NCBI GenBank assembly: GCA_017481875.1
Contig: JAFUOP010000007.1
Location: forward strand, 1 to 34,586
DNA: 34,586 nucleotides
Direction: 5' to 3'
From: Bacteroidaceae bacterium
GTDB lineage: Bacteria > Bacteroidota > Bacteroidia > Bacteroidales > Bacteroidaceae
Shown one piece after another: positions 7,430-13,053 of this stretch; within the stretch, counting starts at the first letter, position 1, and each line of letters opens with the position of its first letter. The position numbers and the translations under genes were made by a program. The notes under the pieces were generated by a model. That model was not told the DNA's origin, did not search any database, and saw nothing but the letters and a program-made list of their open reading frames with translations.

Positions 7430-8521
7430 TTATATGTGTGCCACACCCTCAATTTCAATGAGCAGTTCGGGACGGCAGATGTCGCTTACAAGGTAGTGCT
7501 TGGGCACCGTTGCATAGTGCTTGTTCATATATTCCTTAACTGCGGGGATAGCATCTTCGTGCTTTACATATATGCGCAATAGGTCGTACTGTGCACCGTT
7601 GTTTGGTACAGGAATGTTTTCACGCGATATAAGGTTATTCATAATCTCCATTGTTAGGCCGGCCTGGTACACCGTGTTGTTTTGAGTTGCACTATCTTCT
7701 CCCTTAATGGCCGCAGTGCCCGAAATGTAAATGGTGTTGCCGAGCAGGCGGGCGCGTTCAAATTTTGGGGTGGTGCGCTCCTGTAGCTCCTCAACCACCG
7801 TGCCGTCGAGCACTTTTTGCGAGTAGCTGTGCGCTGCCACCTGCATAGGGTTGTCAATGGGTTTGTTTGTAGCTGTTTCGCCTTTTATTGCATATAGCTC
7901 AATCATTACACCACCACGAGCGGTGCCAATACCTGTTGCAGCGGGGTAGCCGCCGTTCCACTTGCATTTGCTGTAGAAAATGCTGCGTGCATCGTTGAAT
8001 TCCTGGTAGTTTTGGCTGCCATCGTTCTTCAAGGTTATATCCTCAATGTAGTTCCATTGGCGGTAAATGTCGCAAGGGTTGAACCCCTCGGTTGTGAGAA
8101 TGTTTTCAATGGCTGCAAAAATATCCTTTGCCTGTTCAAATGTACTCGTAGAAATATCTCCGGGGATAATGCCTTCGGTTATAAGTTCTTTTGTGGTGCC
8201 ACGTTCCAGCACTTTGTAACGGCTGTGGTGTGTTATGTGCGCATCGTTGTCGGTGAGGTATGTAACCTCGGCAATAAGTGTGTCGCTACTGCTTTTCTGT
8301 GCAATAAAACTTACCAATGGTGCGTGCTTGCCGAAAAACTCGTTTACCGTGCAGTGCAACTCTCTATTCATTGTGAGATATTCGTGGTTGCTACCAGGTA
8401 ATCCGAAGAAAGAAATTTTAAGAGCTCTTCTCCCGTCAATGCGGGCACAGATGTTTTGGCACATCTTCTTTAATGTGTCTTTTTCTGTCGCAGTAATTAC
8501 AATTTGCTCTTTGTGAAACAT
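7430..8521 (-). CDS. RidA/YjgF-superfamily protein with chorismatase-like layout
   Basis: A 363-residue protein with no signal peptide. The C-terminal third has RidA-superfamily features: ERARLLGNTIYISGTAAIKG, a QAGLTMEIMNNLI helix, DLLRIYVKHEDAIPAVKEYM and the final ELLIEIEGVA strand. The middle contains NGGYPAATGIGTARGGVMIE, a motif I associate with the two-domain chorismate-hydrolysing enzymes (FkbO/Hyg5/XanB2 type), which have RidA-like folds. It may therefore act on chorismate or a related enol rather than as a simple imine deaminase. It lies 92 bases after alaX on the same strand but has its own -7 element (8543-8550) and terminator. Superfamily membership is fairly sure; substrate is unknown. 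Confidence 0.65.
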   Translation of the reverse strand: MFHKEQIVITATEKDTLKKMCQNICARIDGRRALKISFFGLPGSNHEYLTMNRELHCTVNEFFGKHAPLVSFIAQKSSSDTLIAEVTYLTDNDAHITHHSRYKVLERGTTKELITEGIIPGDISTSTFEQAKDIFAAIENILTTEGFNPCDIYRQWNYIEDITLKNDGSQNYQEFNDARSIFYSKCKWNGGYPAATGIGTARGGVMIELYAIKGETATNKPIDNPMQVAAHSYSQKVLDGTVVEELQERTTPKFERARLLGNTIYISGTAAIKGEDSATQNNTVYQAGLTMEIMNNLISRENIPVPNNGAQYDLLRIYVKHEDAIPAVKEYMNKHYATVPKHYLVSDICRPELLIEIEGVAHI

Positions 8522-8542
8522 CGCTCTTGCTTATAAACCACG

Positions 8543-8550
8543 CGAAGATA
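8543..8550 (-). promoter_or_regulatory. -7 element TATCTTCG for the RidA-like gene
   Basis: CGAAGATA on the plus strand, 22 bases before the start codon, identical to the elements before guaA and lpxD. Just upstream, ctaaatttaat occurs twice (8563-8573, 8583-8593) with a 20-base period. Confidence 0.45.
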
Positions 8551-8613
8551 CAAAAAATAGTCCTAAATTTAATCTTTTGACACTAAATTTAATTTAAGCA
8601 GCGGTGCTAATAA

Positions 8614-9078
8614 CTATTTTATTAATTTAAACCGCAGGCGCAGTGTACCATTTTCCCAGGTGTGGCTGATGATTCTGAATGTGCCAATTTCATTGGTATT
8701 TTCTACGTGCGCACCAATGCAGGCGCAAACATCATAATCGCCCACGCGCACCAAGCGCAATGTGTCGCTTGCATCGGCAGGTAGCTTTCCTAAATCTACC
8801 TCGGCCGGTACCTCGCTGCGCTTGCAAAATTCTATAGTTACGGGCAACTCACGGGCAATAACATCATTTACTCTTGTTTCAATTTCTGCTATTTGCTCTT
8901 GTGTGGGCTCTGTGGGTAGTTGGTAATCGCATTTGCTCTTTTTGCGTTCTATGTGTGCATTGCGGCTTCTCTCGCACTCGAACATTCTCACCATTGTTTG
9001 GTTTAGAATGTGCTCGGCTGTGTGCATAGGCGCGATTGACATATCTTGAAACTTTGCTGTAGGTTGGTTTATTTCCAT
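8614..9078 (-). CDS. AlaX-type alanyl-tRNA editing protein
   Basis: The 154-residue free-standing editing domain is related to the second additional domain of alanyl-tRNA and threonyl-tRNA synthetases. It would hydrolyse mischarged tRNA (Ser- or Gly-tRNA-Ala) in trans. The zinc ligands are visible: His19 and His23 in MHTAEHIL, and Cys120 with His124 in CACIGAHV. The length matches short AlaX (type I or S). It starts 8 bases after the stop of the nuclease gene at 9087 on the same strand, so the two are probably cotranscribed. That is an odd pairing of a tRNA proofreading enzyme with a putative defence nuclease. The family call is secure; exact tRNA specificity is not. Confidence 0.85.
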   Translation of the reverse strand: MEINQPTAKFQDMSIAPMHTAEHILNQTMVRMFECERSRNAHIERKKSKCDYQLPTEPTQEQIAEIETRVNDVIARELPVTIEFCKRSEVPAEVDLGKLPADASDTLRLVRVGDYDVCACIGAHVENTNEIGTFRIISHTWENGTLRLRFKLIK

Positions 9079-9086
9079 AATGTTCG

Positions 9087-10142
9087 TTATAGTTCTACAA
9101 TGTATCTCTTTTTAAGGTATTCCAGCCATTTTCTCTGCTCATCCTGTTTAAAAAAAGAATCTATGAGCTTAAACAATGATTCGTATGTTAGGTCTATAAA
9201 ACTATTACAACCTTTCTCGGTAAGCAATTGTTTATATTCGGGTATGGCATATTGATGGAAGTGCTTGTTGCCTTCGGGGTAAAGGTGTATGTAATGAAAT
9301 CTTTTGATCTCGCCTTTTCGCAACATTGAATATCCTAATATATGGTTACGCCATATTTGTCTTAGGTGGTTAGCTTTAATGAATGAAGTTATATTTAAAC
9401 TTGGAATAAAATAATTTGATTCTTCGCTCACTTGTCGATATTTTCCGTTGGGATCCTCAATATCCTTTTTCTCCTTAACTCCAATGCGATAGCCATTTTC
9501 TGTGTATTTCACTTCAATGCCAATGCCACCTTTGGCATTTTCTGTCGTTGTGTATTCAATGAAAGTGTCGAAAGATGTACCATCTTTCAAATATTCGCTT
9601 CTGTCTGGTGATTTGCCTGCAAATTCAATATGTATTTTATCTATGCGTGAAATACCTCCTCCGATAACCTCGTTGAACAGTGCTGTTGCAGCACTTAAGT
9701 CTTCCTCCATAGGGGTAAAGATGTTGTATGGAATATGTTCGCTCCTTAGCATATTTGAAAAAAGAGCCGACGTTCCAAATGATTTAAACTTATTTTGAAT
9801 AAAGCCCCTGTATGTGTCGCAAAATATCAATCCTTTTTTTGCCGCATCGGGAGTAAGCATCACTTGCGGGTTCTTCTCGTCGTAGTAATTGTTCAACTCT
9901 CTTTCCCTAAATGCGAACTGATGAGCACGTGCTTTTGCTTTGAATTCATCATCGTAGCGATATGTTTTGCCTTTTGTCATTTTTAATTCGTGATTTTGCT
10001 CTCCGTTATGCATAGGCGGGTACTCCTGTTTGCCTGCAGCGAACTTGCTATCGCTCGGCATAATACAAGCACGCTTGTCTTCTGCACTCGCTGAACCGCA
10101 ACTTTGATTATGTTCGTTAAGTATTGGTGTTTCGGTGCTCAT
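9087..10142 (-). CDS. PGN_0703-like PD-(D/E)XK nuclease, first of two
   Basis: A 351-residue putative endonuclease. Candidate catalytic residues are Asp192 in SFDTFIEY and Glu210-Val-Lys212 in GIGIEVKYTENGY, the D...(E)xK pattern of PD-(D/E)XK enzymes. The downstream HLRQIWRNHILGYSML (259-274) and the upstream FGTSALFSNMLRSEHIPYNIF are landmarks I associate with PGN_0703-type restriction-endonuclease domains. The first 55 residues (MSTETPILNE...YPPMHNGEQ) look like a disordered tail. I chose Met 10142 because the -7 element at 10208-10215 lies downstream of an upstream in-frame Met at 10247. The gene is divergent from the WYL gene, and alaX follows after 8 bases. Target, and whether a methylase is needed, are unknown; none is nearby. 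Confidence 0.6.
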   Translation of the reverse strand: MSTETPILNEHNQSCGSASAEDKRACIMPSDSKFAAGKQEYPPMHNGEQNHELKMTKGKTYRYDDEFKAKARAHQFAFRERELNNYYDEKNPQVMLTPDAAKKGLIFCDTYRGFIQNKFKSFGTSALFSNMLRSEHIPYNIFTPMEEDLSAATALFNEVIGGGISRIDKIHIEFAGKSPDRSEYLKDGTSFDTFIEYTTTENAKGGIGIEVKYTENGYRIGVKEKKDIEDPNGKYRQVSEESNYFIPSLNITSFIKANHLRQIWRNHILGYSMLRKGEIKRFHYIHLYPEGNKHFHQYAIPEYKQLLTEKGCNSFIDLTYESLFKLIDSFFKQDEQRKWLEYLKKRYIVEL

Positions 10143-10175
10143 TGTCTTATTAGTTTTGTTGGTTAATGGAGTTAT

Positions 10176-10190
10176 ATGCAAAATATGCAT
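10176..10190. promoter_or_regulatory. Candidate WYL operator, site 1
   Basis: ATGCAAAATATGCAT is an inverted repeat (ATGCA / TGCAT) lying between the minus-strand -7 element and the first nuclease start. It matches site 2 (reverse complement) at 12 of 15 positions. A protein bound here could block transcription of the nuclease. Confidence 0.4.
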
Positions 10191-10207
10191 ATAAGTCGTT
10201 CTGATGG

Positions 10208-10215
10208 CAAATATA
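10208..10215 (-). promoter_or_regulatory. -7 element TATATTTG for the first nuclease
   Basis: CAAATATA on the plus strand. It places the transcript start near 10201 and supports translation from Met 10142. Confidence 0.55.
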
Positions 10216-10231
10216 AATTCATTTTTGAACC

Positions 10232-10246
10232 TGTGCAATTTTTGCA
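10232..10246. promoter_or_regulatory. Candidate WYL operator, site 2
   Basis: GTGCAATTTTTGCAT, whose reverse complement ATGCAAAAATTGCAC resembles site 1. It overlaps the -33 region of the WYL promoter (TTTG at 10240-10243), a position suited to autoregulation. Confidence 0.4.
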
Positions 10247-10257
10247 TAGGCGTACAT

Positions 10258-10265
10258 TATATTTG
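10258..10265 (+). promoter_or_regulatory. -7 element TATATTTG for WYL and the second nuclease
   Basis: Exact TAnnTTTG match with a TTTG -33 box at 10240-10243, 23 bases before the WYL start codon. Confidence 0.6.
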
Positions 10266-10287
10266 CAGTGCACAACGAGTATAAGTT

Positions 10288-11193
10288 ATGATAAGCAAGA
10301 CATTTAACCGTTACATTTGGCTATTGAATACGCTCCTTCAACATAAGCAACTTTCCTATGAAGAAATTAATGCTTTGTGGAGGGAATGTTATTTGGGCGA
10401 TGGTGCTTCGTTGCCGTTGCGCACATTCCATCAGCATAAAAGTGCTGTTGAGGAGTTATTCGGTATTGAAATAAAATGCAATCCTTCAAATGGGTACAGA
10501 TACTACATATCTTCTCCCGATACATTGAAGAACGACAGTATCCGCAAATGGCTTTTGAACTCATTTACACTGTCCAATATGATAATAGTAGGGCACAATA
10601 TGAAAGGGCGGATTTTGTTTGAGGAGATACCTTGCGGAACAGAATATCTGCAAACGATTATTGAGGCAATGCAGAAATCGAAAGAACTTCAAGTCGATTA
10701 TCAACCGTTCTATGGGCATAGAGAAACATATAACATTCAGCCTTACGCTATGAAGGTTTATCATCAACGGTGGTATGTGGTCGGTTACATTAAAGAACTT
10801 GGGAGTATAAGGAATATTGCACTCGACCGCACACTTGGAATGAACCTATCTGCTGCCTCATTTATATTGCCGAAGGATTTTGATGCAGAAAAGTATTATG
10901 CCAATACGATTGGAATATTTGTGAATGAGGAACTGAAACCTACTAAAGTGAAGATAAGAGCCTACGGCAGGCAGATAGAATATTTGCGTTCGTTACCGCT
11001 TCACTGTTCCCAGAAAGAGAGGGCTTCCAAATATGGCGAGTTCTGCGATTTTGAGTACAAATTATGCCTGACTCCCGAACTCTCAACCCATATACTCGCA
11101 ATGGGTGAAAATGTTGAGGTGCTGGAGCCTATAGAACTGAGAGAGGAGATAAAAAGAAGGATTTGTTTAATTTATAACAAATACAACGTATGA
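10288..11193 (+). CDS. WYL-domain transcriptional regulator
   Basis: A 301-residue regulator of the kind often found in phage-defence islands, where WYL proteins usually repress and sense a nucleic-acid or nucleotide ligand. The N-terminal part (about 1-75) is a winged helix with LLNTLLQHKQLSYEEINALW and a recognition-helix segment LPLRTFHQHKSAVEELFG. The WYL domain (about 115-200) shows VDYQPFYG, YNIQPYAMKVYHQRWYVVGY and RNIALDRT. A C-terminal WCX-type domain (about 210-301) contains VKIRAYGRQIEYLRSLPL. Its stop overlaps the next start as ATGA, so it is translationally coupled to the second nuclease. Two 15-bp near-palindromes in its promoter region are candidate binding sites. Confidence 0.85.
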   Translation: MISKTFNRYIWLLNTLLQHKQLSYEEINALWRECYLGDGASLPLRTFHQHKSAVEELFGIEIKCNPSNGYRYYISSPDTLKNDSIRKWLLNSFTLSNMIIVGHNMKGRILFEEIPCGTEYLQTIIEAMQKSKELQVDYQPFYGHRETYNIQPYAMKVYHQRWYVVGYIKELGSIRNIALDRTLGMNLSAASFILPKDFDAEKYYANTIGIFVNEELKPTKVKIRAYGRQIEYLRSLPLHCSQKERASKYGEFCDFEYKLCLTPELSTHILAMGENVEVLEPIELREEIKRRICLIYNKYNV

Positions 11194-11996
11194 AGAAAAG
11201 TTATGCAGAGAAACGAAAAGAACAGCTTACGACATATGCTGTTAAGTTGCAGTTGCCTTTTGGCGGACATTGGCAAGGCAAAGGGTGTTATCCTCATATT
11301 CTGAAATTTAAAGAGAGTGCTAATGATACCCAAAACAGGAAGAATAAGTATAAGGTCATTTGTGAGAAGAATATTATCCAAGGTGTCTCGACTGATAAGT
11401 TTACTATGAAAGAAATGCACAAATATGCACATCATCTTAACTCCTCACAAGTGCTGTGTTATAACTTTTTTAGGCCGTTGATTACAGTAAATAATAGTCC
11501 TACTGATGAACTTATTCAGTTACTCGAAAAGCGAGGTGTAAAAATCTCTCGTTCTGCGATATGCTCATTCGAATATTGTCCTGATAAAGAAGAGAAAACA
11601 CAGTTTGATTTCCATATTCAAGATGGAGATATAGAGGTGTTTTTTGAGATTAAATATACAGAGTACGGATTTGGAAAGGCAAAAAAAGATGACAAACATA
11701 AAGAGAAATTTGTAACGATATATGAGAAGTATCTCAACAAACAGTGTTGTTTGAAATGCAAACCCAATTTTGATGAATTCGCAAATCATTATCAACTCTA
11801 TCGTAATACCATACGCATAACCAACAAGAATAAATATGTAGTATTATTGTATCCGAAGGCTAATAAAAAAACGAATAGTGAAGCATATGAATTTTGTGGA
11901 AAGGTAAAGGAGGATTATAAGGATAATATATTGTGTTTGTGTTGGGAAAATATTGTTGAGAAAGACTCAGAACTCTACCGCAAATACTTTGCGTAA
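11190..11996 (+). CDS. PGN_0703-like PD-(D/E)XK nuclease, second of two
   Basis: A 268-residue putative endonuclease. Candidate catalytic residues are Asp140 in QFDFHI and Glu153-Ile-Lys155 in FFEIKYTEYGFGKA; the IKYTE core matches VKYTE of the first nuclease. Other shared landmarks are SSQVLCYNFFRPL (85-97), NHYQLYRNTIRI (199-210, compare NHLRQIWRNHIL) and a later strand VVLLYPKAN (217-225, compare IHLYPEGN). The N-terminus (GGHWQGKGCYPHIL) differs from the first nuclease, which suggests paralogues with different targeting. Cysteines at 185-190 (CCLKC) are unusual. It overlaps the WYL gene by ATGA and ends 1 base before a rhuM-like remnant on the other strand. No terminator is evident. Confidence 0.6.
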   Translation: MKKSYAEKRKEQLTTYAVKLQLPFGGHWQGKGCYPHILKFKESANDTQNRKNKYKVICEKNIIQGVSTDKFTMKEMHKYAHHLNSSQVLCYNFFRPLITVNNSPTDELIQLLEKRGVKISRSAICSFEYCPDKEEKTQFDFHIQDGDIEVFFEIKYTEYGFGKAKKDDKHKEKFVTIYEKYLNKQCCLKCKPNFDEFANHYQLYRNTIRITNKNKYVVLLYPKANKKTNSEAYEFCGKVKEDYKDNILCLCWENIVEKDSELYRKYFA

Positions 11997-12113
11997 CTAA
12001 TGTGAACGGCTAAGCCACACTGTTTCGTTCTCCAGTTTTACATCAAGCGATATAGCATTATCCTCACTCGTGTATATTGCAATTGGTGATGCCCCAAACT
12101 CTCCGTTATTCAT
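11997..12113 (-). pseudogene. N-terminal remnant of a RhuM-family protein
   Basis: ATG 12113 to stop 11997 on the minus strand encodes 38 residues. They include IAIYTSEDNA and LDVKLENETVWLSRS, which match the start of RhuM-type proteins (I-x-Y-x-T-x-D-G... followed by (E/D)TVWLTQ-x-QMA). The helix-turn-helix and everything after it are missing. The start overlaps the acyltransferase gene by 8 bases, and the frame is cut off exactly where the second nuclease ends. This suggests the defence cassette replaced or was inserted into a resident rhuM gene. Confidence 0.55.
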
Positions 12114-13053
12114 TGGTGGGGTGTATTTTTTCTGTTAATAATTTAGCAATGCCTTTGTATGCAAATACAAAAATTGTTGTAGCAATAATATTTGCGGCAA
12201 AATATAGTGTAAAATGCATTATGTTGCTTGGAATCAACCACATTGCAGGAATGCTTAGCAGGTAATATAGCAAGCTGTTTTTTCCAATATATAGTAGCCA
12301 CTGTGGCCGGTACGTTGTTTTTTCCAGAGCACACAATGCAATAACACAAAATGCAAGTCCTCCAACTATTTGTATTGGTGCCGACACTATTCCGTTTATT
12401 ATGCACAAATAGTATATTGCAAAAAGTGTTATTGACATTGCAATGTGTTTTTTCTTAAAAACAGGGTATGTGGTGTGTATAGCTCCTAAAACAAAGCACA
12501 AATTTGATATATACCAGTACCCACCGGCTTTGCAAAGGAAAAGAGTTGCAACAAGGGCTGTTTGTACTATAGCAAGGTATATAAATCTTTTTTTTGTTTC
12601 TGCTATTAACTTGAAAAGCAAGAATGTAGTTATGTAATCGAACAATATAATTTTTATAAACCATATATCTGTTCCTTCCGGTAGGCTCAGTGTGAAAATG
12701 TTATAGTGGTCTATTTCTATATTGTTATATGCCATAGTGTGGGGTAGTAGAATTGAATTTATTATATAAACCACAATTACCGGAATTATTATTTTCTTTA
12801 TGTGGGTTATCAGGTATTTTGCAGTCGGCCTGTTTTTGTATAGAGAATTCACCATTCCATACCCCGACATAAAGAAAAAAAGGCAGCAGCCCAGTATCCC
12901 AAACATTGGTATAAGTAATAGATGAGAAATGTTGGAGCTGTAGCATTCATATTCATTAATGGAATGAACAAATATAATCATAAGCATTGCTATTGCTCGT
13001 ATTGCGTATCCACAATCGTATGATATTATATGTTTCTCTTTTGTGCTTTCCAT
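12106..13053 (-). CDS. Acyltransferase 3 family membrane protein
   Basis: A 315-residue integral membrane protein with about ten hydrophobic segments. It resembles OafA/WecH-type O-acyltransferases that move acyl groups from CoA to cell-surface sugars. The N-terminal helix ends with the family-typical IIFVHSINEYE (catalytic-type His after a hydrophobic stretch) and is followed by a second helix ending LFFFMSGYGMVNSLYKNR, the (F/Y)-F-x-SG-(Y/F) motif of the family. The C-terminal helices include YIGKNSLLYYLLSIPAMWL. It stands alone on the minus strand, behind a -7 element at 13076-13083. The acceptor cannot be told from sequence. Its 3' end overlaps the rhuM-like remnant. Confidence 0.8.
   Translation of the reverse strand: MESTKEKHIISYDCGYAIRAIAMLMIIFVHSINEYECYSSNISHLLLIPMFGILGCCLFFFMSGYGMVNSLYKNRPTAKYLITHIKKIIIPVIVVYIINSILLPHTMAYNNIEIDHYNIFTLSLPEGTDIWFIKIILFDYITTFLLFKLIAETKKRFIYLAIVQTALVATLFLCKAGGYWYISNLCFVLGAIHTTYPVFKKKHIAMSITLFAIYYLCIINGIVSAPIQIVGGLAFCVIALCALEKTTYRPQWLLYIGKNSLLYYLLSIPAMWLIPSNIMHFTLYFAANIIATTIFVFAYKGIAKLLTEKIHPTNE

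Follow-up and report, generated by a model that had tools for sequence, protein, structure and literature searches.

Introduction

Which of the genes around a WYL-domain regulator in a gut Bacteroidales genome belong to that regulator, and what might the resulting unit do? The window analysed here, the whole stretch of 34,586 nucleotides of contig JAFUOP010000007.1 from a Bacteroidaceae bacterium (assembly GCA_017481875.1), holds such a regulator between two predicted nucleases, A on the minus strand and C directly behind the regulator on the plus strand, and an earlier note made from the letters alone had read the three genes as a candidate defence system. Comparison with related genomes suggests a different grouping, in which WYL and C form a predicted two-gene operon, the real unit appears to be the WYL gene plus the nuclease behind it, and the whole is a putative defence locus with a replaceable weapon. 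Two points absent from the earlier note emerged, namely that the nuclease is exchangeable and that the WYL clade often occurs with sigma-like and DnaE-like companions.

Results and Discussion

The WYL regulator and the nuclease slot behind it

The features of the predicted unit in the window are:

10231..10287, plus strand: conserved WYL upstream region, with TATATTTG present in 11 of 11 aligned loci
10288..11193, plus strand: WYL-domain regulator (N-terminal part at about residues 1-115, WYL 119-181, WCX 218-292)
11190..11193, plus strand: ATGA stop/start overlap of WYL and C, the left exchange border
11190..11996, plus strand: C, a PD-(D/E)XK-family nuclease of Pfam REase-ARP, the current occupant of the slot 3' of WYL

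The three open reading frames (ORFs) of the earlier note, at 9087-10247 (minus strand), 10288-11193 and 11190-11996 (both plus strand), are real, and the ATGA overlap is present. The middle protein matched WYL (PF13280, 45.1 bits) and WCX (PF25583, 35 bits), both above cut-off, and TATATTTG upstream of it presumably resembles the Bacteroidetes -7 box. Both predicted nucleases belong to PD-(D/E)XK families, as had been proposed, each matching the same two Pfam families: A scored 202.4 bits with PDDEXK_13 (curated cut-off 27) and 92 bits with REase-ARP, C 116.9 bits with REase-ARP (curated cut-off 27) and 41.5 bits with PDDEXK_13. Their D...ExK motifs had been read correctly as D140, E153 and K155 in C and as D192, E210 and K212 in A counted from M36 (D227, E245 and K247 in the 386-aa frame), and D, E and K are retained in all 7 aligned REase-ARP sequences, C among them, and in 12/12 A homologues examined. 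The likeness of the two proteins in a segment described as NHxRQxxRN is likewise real and fits the shared Pfam families, but the pattern itself is inexact (NHLRQIWRN in A, NHYQLYRN in C).

WYL was found in 245 of 399 family genomes, the clade being taken as matches at about 44% identity or more, whereas C was found in 4/200 related genomes, the window's own included, the closest being G043 with a WYL 86% identical. A named set was obtained by searching with a 30-sequence WYL profile (A1) and keeping the best 80 of 422 relatives, and the resulting 79 loci therefore represent the near part of the clade. They are nearly all from Bacteroidales, and most titles point to metagenome-assembled genomes (MAGs) from ruminants or other animals; the set also includes Bacteroides xylanisolvens XB1A, B. 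acidifaciens DSM 15896, Prevotella oulorum, Segatella maculosa and P. pectinovora, and one record is titled as a Treponema MAG (L245), possibly a binning error.

When 44 loci were read (the window, three fetched regions and 40 further loci), the genes after WYL proved to be a succession of ORFs between which BLASTP found no relation, most of them bearing a D..ExK pattern. Among the 76 named loci with at least 400 bp behind WYL (L196, L244 and L256, with less, were left out), a nuclease-like ORF stood directly 3' of WYL in 62 (60 recognised by cluster profile and two, L197 and L198, by eye), and in 48/57 after thinning at 90% WYL identity; because the cluster profiles were built from the same named loci, these counts test recurrence and not independent discovery. 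The genetic coupling of WYL to a nuclease that the earlier note had assumed is thus borne out. For comparison, the 20 WYL homologues next in similarity (36-43% identity), with the downstream gene called by eye, had a PD-(D/E)XK-like ORF after WYL in a single case (L173), a DnaQ-like exonuclease in three, and other genes or none elsewhere (62/76 versus 1/20, Fisher 2e-10). At the distant WYL loci L164, L176 and L177 a DnaQ-like exonuclease ORF (by eye) follows WYL with a 4-bp overlap, which is perhaps another WYL-effector pair.

The slot holds no nuclease in 14 loci (L199-L202, L207, L213, L215-L217, L224, L225, L227, L228 and L231). At L202 nucleases lie further downstream, and at L213, L215, L216, L224, L225 and L227 the nuclease-profile matches lie upstream of WYL. 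A sigma-like gene directly follows WYL at L213, L215, L216 and L217, and L199 and L201 resemble them, the sigma-like match there being weak.

The effectors start, as called, from -14 to +99 bp relative to the WYL stop and fall into at least six profile-level groups plus two singletons. When the 64 labelled effectors minus L197, L198 and the truncated L256 were aligned (61 sequences), only the columns M1, D140, E153 and K155 proved invariant, at a mean column identity of 10%. Slot cluster c1 corresponds to Pfam DUF6946 (PF22187), while representatives of c2, c3, c6, c7 and c8, scanned singly, gave no Pfam match up to E 0.05. At L214 (5962-7965) a 668-aa ORF after WYL seemingly joins a c2 nuclease to another nuclease-like part. 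Together with PF22558 (REase-ARP, for C) and PF20796 (PDDEXK_13, for A), DUF6946 is known as a curated family alone, and no paper on REase-ARP was found among open-licence PMC papers.

This variety bears on the possibility that the pair works like a type IV restriction enzyme, solitary and regulated: the nuclease itself would recognise modified or otherwise foreign DNA and the regulator would only keep its level low, the main difference from the reading favoured below being the target recognised. A slot open to many nuclease types could provide a range of specificities, and the VIA list for C includes MspJI and McrC. Moreover, neither a methyltransferase, whose absence had already been pointed out, nor another defence core was detected among the ten window proteins scanned around these genes (A, WYL, C, AlaX-like, acyltransferase, chorismatase-like, Hsp20, GAPDH and two PspC-domain proteins). 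However, Pfam named no modified-base-reading domain in the 61 effectors, and we consider this explanation unlikely. A restriction-modification (R-M) system was also considered and rejected, as the ten scanned proteins include no cognate methyltransferase next to the nuclease.

Exchange of the effector gene

The nuclease has changed repeatedly behind a conserved regulator. A maximum-likelihood tree built by the 'quick' method covered 78 WYL proteins, L181 and L189 being omitted because their WYL frames contain stops; over its 62 labelled rows the effector label changes at least 35 times, and 29 times after merging the profile-related clusters c0/c4 and c2/c3; the REase-ARP label shows 7 changes for its 7 rows. 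Shuffled labels gave means of 40.3 and 33.8 (merged) with minima of 35 and 29, so that some clustering of labels remains.

Traces of the exchange are visible in the DNA itself. Both borders can be seen in 10/17 DNA pairs (L180/L182, L184/L185, L184/L188, L181/L180, L186/L190, L187/L190, L189/L188, L191/L193, L192/L194 and L249/L252), in which homology spans the upstream region through WYL, ends around the WYL stop, is missing between the nuclease ORFs themselves and picks up again no more than about 65 bp from the stop of either nuclease, from where it continues into the sigma-like gene. In all pairs with different effectors the left border lies between 62 bp before and 14 bp after the WYL stop, and between the window and L180 homology stops 34 bp before it. 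The right border appears as a stretch of 70-84 bp alone in L226/L229 and L220/L210, and an exchange trace with both borders was not seen in L180/window, L233/L238, L253/L256 and L207/L214; the window's own locus accordingly displays the left border alone, as its pairing with L180 has no right border. The pair L180/L183, both c1, aligned throughout.

Several loci carry more than one nuclease. Two or three nuclease-profile matches occur at L202, L204, L206, L208, L239, L242 and L245, and at L242 and L245 different nuclease types (c4 and c3; at L242 also c7) stand in a row after one WYL with repeated segments between them. A copy of 64-65 bp of the WYL 3' end precedes a second nuclease-like ORF shortly at L239 and L212 (97% and 86% identity), the one at L212 being a weak c2 match of 40 bits. 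In addition, a stretch of 68-99 bp behind the first nuclease recurs further downstream at L229, L249, L252, L212 and L233, and holds, except in L212, a terminator-like hairpin with a T-run. From these remnants it looks as though new nucleases may enter between WYL and the older nuclease by recombination in short homologous arms, and the borders, the WYL 3' end and the terminator-promoter-like stretch, fit homologous recombination. In integron-like gene cassettes genes are exchanged behind a fixed promoter; the present remnants similarly suggest that new genes enter beside the regulator, but the borders are here the WYL 3' end and the terminator-promoter-like stretch.

Sigma-like and DnaE-like companions

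A profile scan from 4 kb before to 4.5 kb behind WYL revealed two recurrent neighbours. Among the 56 well-covered loci (with 3 kb or more behind WYL and 1 kb or more before it), 35 had a sigma-70-like ORF and 39 a DnaE-like ORF, with 49 having at least one of the two and 25 having both; six of these matches score below 40 bits, and at 40 bits or more the numbers are 32, 36 and 49 (either). Neither ORF was present at any of the 20 control WYL loci. All 26 sigma-like proteins scanned (of 43 listed) contain Sigma70 region 2, whereas region 4 was found in 9 and region 3 in 4. The ORFs as called range from 96 to 305 aa, with one of 446 aa, and those near full length might be housekeeping rpoD.

The DnaE-like protein has about 166 aa, and 5/21 members match PF07733 (polymerase III alpha) at E 0.01; L152, a further short member, exceeds the cut-off of that family. 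In the short form the acidic PDxD-like pair, a motif of the polymerase, is lost (by eye). L144 carries, beside a clade WYL, a 487-aa divergent ORF (1514-2974) with PF07733 and a finger domain, shorter than the polymerase. In 27 named loci the DnaE-like ORF is divergent from WYL at a distance of 8-248 bp. Its profile gave 35 hits in family genomes, of which at least 23 lie within 4.5 kb of a clade WYL among the matches listed (matched by hand, the two 399-genome family sets of the WYL and DnaE-like searches being taken as the same from shared handles). Among the 12 not placed beside a clade WYL in those matches, G019 and G269 are at contig ends, and in G100 the frame has the length of a true polymerase.

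It is possible, though doubtful, that these genes have no part in the system: they may be passengers at a recombination hotspot or duplicates undergoing decay, and the longest sigma-like ORFs may be housekeeping genes there. The variable length of the sigma-like ORFs, some near full length, the coverage of part of the polymerase family alone by the short DnaE-like protein, internal stops in 2/35 DnaE-like hits and the existence of the window locus without companions would all suit such an explanation. In contrast, the DnaE-like proteins keep 21 invariant columns in 21 members, 33/35 hits are without an internal stop, and the gene is rare in the family (34/399 genomes) yet mostly beside a clade WYL among the matches listed. 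The window itself contains a reduced copy with neither companion nearby: the profile search found no DnaE-like hit in its own genome, and the profile scan found no sigma-like ORF in the window.

Nuclease A as a separate gene

The features around A are:

9087..10142, minus strand: nuclease A (PDDEXK_13), probable start M36 at 10142, read as an independent gene outside the WYL unit
9087..10247, minus strand: long ORF frame of A, 386 aa
10032..10106, minus strand: 75-bp in-frame insertion (25 codons) in A relative to L076, length counted by hand
10231..10246, strand not assigned: 16-bp junction at which the A upstream region meets the WYL promoter, compared with G031

The relatives of A start at the position of M36 (MTTETP or MTSETP), and judged by them the start of A is almost certainly M36 (10142), so that the gap between A and WYL is about 145 bp and not 40. 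A matches 34/200 related genomes, in many cases with its N-terminal segment alone, and 12/20 fetched regions hold a long match to its nuclease part (L068, L069, L075-L079 and L081-L085; flanks of about 5 kb or less, some contigs short). WYL is present in 1/12 of these loci, L075 (G031), where it lies 2.4 kb off with an acyltransferase-like ORF and a DnaE-like ORF of about 166 aa in between. Conversely, G043 has WYL and C, and its sole A match is the N-terminal segment.

The region between A and WYL, which had been taken for a shared promoter, is not conserved as such. In G031 the counterparts of the stretch upstream of A (match ending at 10246) and of the WYL promoter (match beginning at 10231) lie at two separate places about 2.2 kb apart, and the 16-bp sequence at the window junction occurs at both of them; in G031, A keeps the same upstream stretch and has no WYL beside it. 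A was probably brought beside WYL in the window lineage by a local deletion at this 16-bp repeat. The reverse order, an insertion in G031, is less favoured because the 166-aa ORF adjoins WYL in many other genomes.

A thus appears to be a bystander and not a part of the WYL unit. That A, WYL and C act as a single defence system of three genes around a common divergent promoter is very improbable, even though A and C are related PD-(D/E)XK proteins and A lies less than 150 bp from the regulator in the window: WYL is absent from or non-adjacent in the A loci, G043 has the pair with no more than the A N-terminal segment, and the junction fits a deletion between the two repeats seen in G031. The check for co-occurrence that the earlier note had put forward accordingly comes out in favour of the WYL-nuclease pair and fails for the A-WYL-C version, because A does not co-occur with WYL and C.

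Several observations concern A and its surroundings. All or part of a 151-bp segment around the insertion in A has matches in 34/44 genomes of the genus, some of which have multiple copies of its middle part, and the region looks like a mobile coding repeat; an RNA structure for the segment was not supported. The N-terminal segment at 10029-10142 (ending YPPMH or similar) heads unrelated proteins within the genus, among them A, RhuM/Fic-looking ORFs (by eye) and, shortened, an AlaX-like protein; segment-bearing ORFs are found at L067 (4580-5722 and 5726-6187), L068 (4646-5797) and L069 (4855-5976). The 3' end of the acyltransferase gene in the window (12083-12115) resembles the end of this segment (by eye). 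Chorismatase-like and AlaX-like genes adjoin A at 7430-9078, in the same order in G021, G023, G031 and G032 and also in G043, there without A, and these surroundings are a conserved chromosomal spot that gathers variable genes.

Proposed mechanism and relation to known systems

Searched against the PDB, WYL profile A1 found PafBC (6sj9) as its best match at 1e-14 and eight other WYL or regulator sequences, while its match to 7qfz was weak (E 0.009 over 71 positions). We take 7qfz to be BrxR, and 7u02, 7tzv and 8tp8 to be DriD. The two values favour an activator that answers single-stranded DNA (ssDNA).

We assign a probability of about 0.6 to the reading that a conserved Bacteroidales WYL protein controls whichever PD-(D/E)XK-family nuclease occupies the slot behind it, and that infection or damage induces the resident predicted nuclease. 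As trigger, WYL would sense ssDNA or a similar product of phage replication or DNA damage, and the direction of regulation would be positive, with the triggered protein acting as an activator that switches on the operon to which it belongs. Where a sigma-like protein occurs, it may act for WYL as a sigma part of its own, and a possible role of the DnaE-like fragment is to bind the replication machinery or to report on it. The substrate of the induced nuclease would be either the invading DNA or, in a suicidal response, the host's own, the presumed benefit in both cases being defence, and a swap of the nuclease would change the weapon or its target and leave the trigger unchanged. Induction after infection instead of methylation-based self-recognition, which the earlier note had raised, remains a sensible expectation for such a predicted locus.

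A more far-reaching proposal, speculative and on present evidence rather improbable, would make these loci a class of inducible immunity in which a WYL sensor with a plug-in nuclease is tied to replication and transcription via a sigma-region-2 protein and a mimic of polymerase III alpha. The companions would then be guards or decoys for the take-over of replicase or RNA polymerase by phages, or a readout of stalled replication, and recombination at the 3' end of the WYL gene would bring in new nucleases and push the older ones further downstream.

The nuclease could also attack host DNA within a toxin-antitoxin-like or abortive module, with WYL as the repressor that silences it. The operon is indeed tight, with start and stop overlapping or nearly so. 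However, WYL remains where no nuclease follows, nothing seen beside the nuclease looked like a dedicated neutraliser, and the best solved relative is PafBC, the match to the presumed BrxR entry being the weak one. The WYL protein BrxR does act as a repressor (PMC9122601). All in all, such a module seems an unlikely explanation.

Several features set the present loci apart from BrxR: a single nuclease ORF behind WYL varies by locus within one Bacteroidales clade, sigma-like and DnaE-like genes are neighbours, and the profile likeness to 7qfz, presumably BrxR, is weak. WYL domains are taken as ligand sensors (PMC4012209), and the BrxR family is similar in that a WYL regulator is encoded beside diverse defence genes, but BrxR represses a defence island and its neighbours are known systems (BREX, R-M, CRISPR and others; PMC9122601). 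PafBC is activated by ssDNA and acts by sigma adaptation (PMC11804915), and the ssDNA sensing and sigma route of PafBC and DriD offer a ready mechanism for the present regulator, of which PafBC is the best PDB match; these proteins, however, control the DNA damage response, and an adjacent exchangeable nuclease is unmentioned in the accessible text (PMC11804915, PMC12340889). CapK/CapS, a control pair that senses ssDNA upstream of diverse immune operons, resembles our loci in its modular regulation but consists of a kinase and a STAS-like repressor instead of WYL (PMC13373217). A WYL clade with a fixed slot and a varying PD-(D/E)XK-family nuclease was not found described in open-licence PMC papers.

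Conclusions

Regulators beside diverse defence genes were already known, and it is the exchange in the slot and the two companions that may deserve more attention. Inspection of the gene behind a clade WYL gives a handle for unannotated nucleases, and the clade locus is present in named strains such as Bacteroides xylanisolvens XB1A, whose locus L221 has a nuclease of cluster c3. The loci also offer a natural experiment for seeing what is exchanged in a putative defence locus, and the sigma-like and DnaE-like partners might tie immunity to transcription and replication in these Bacteroidales.

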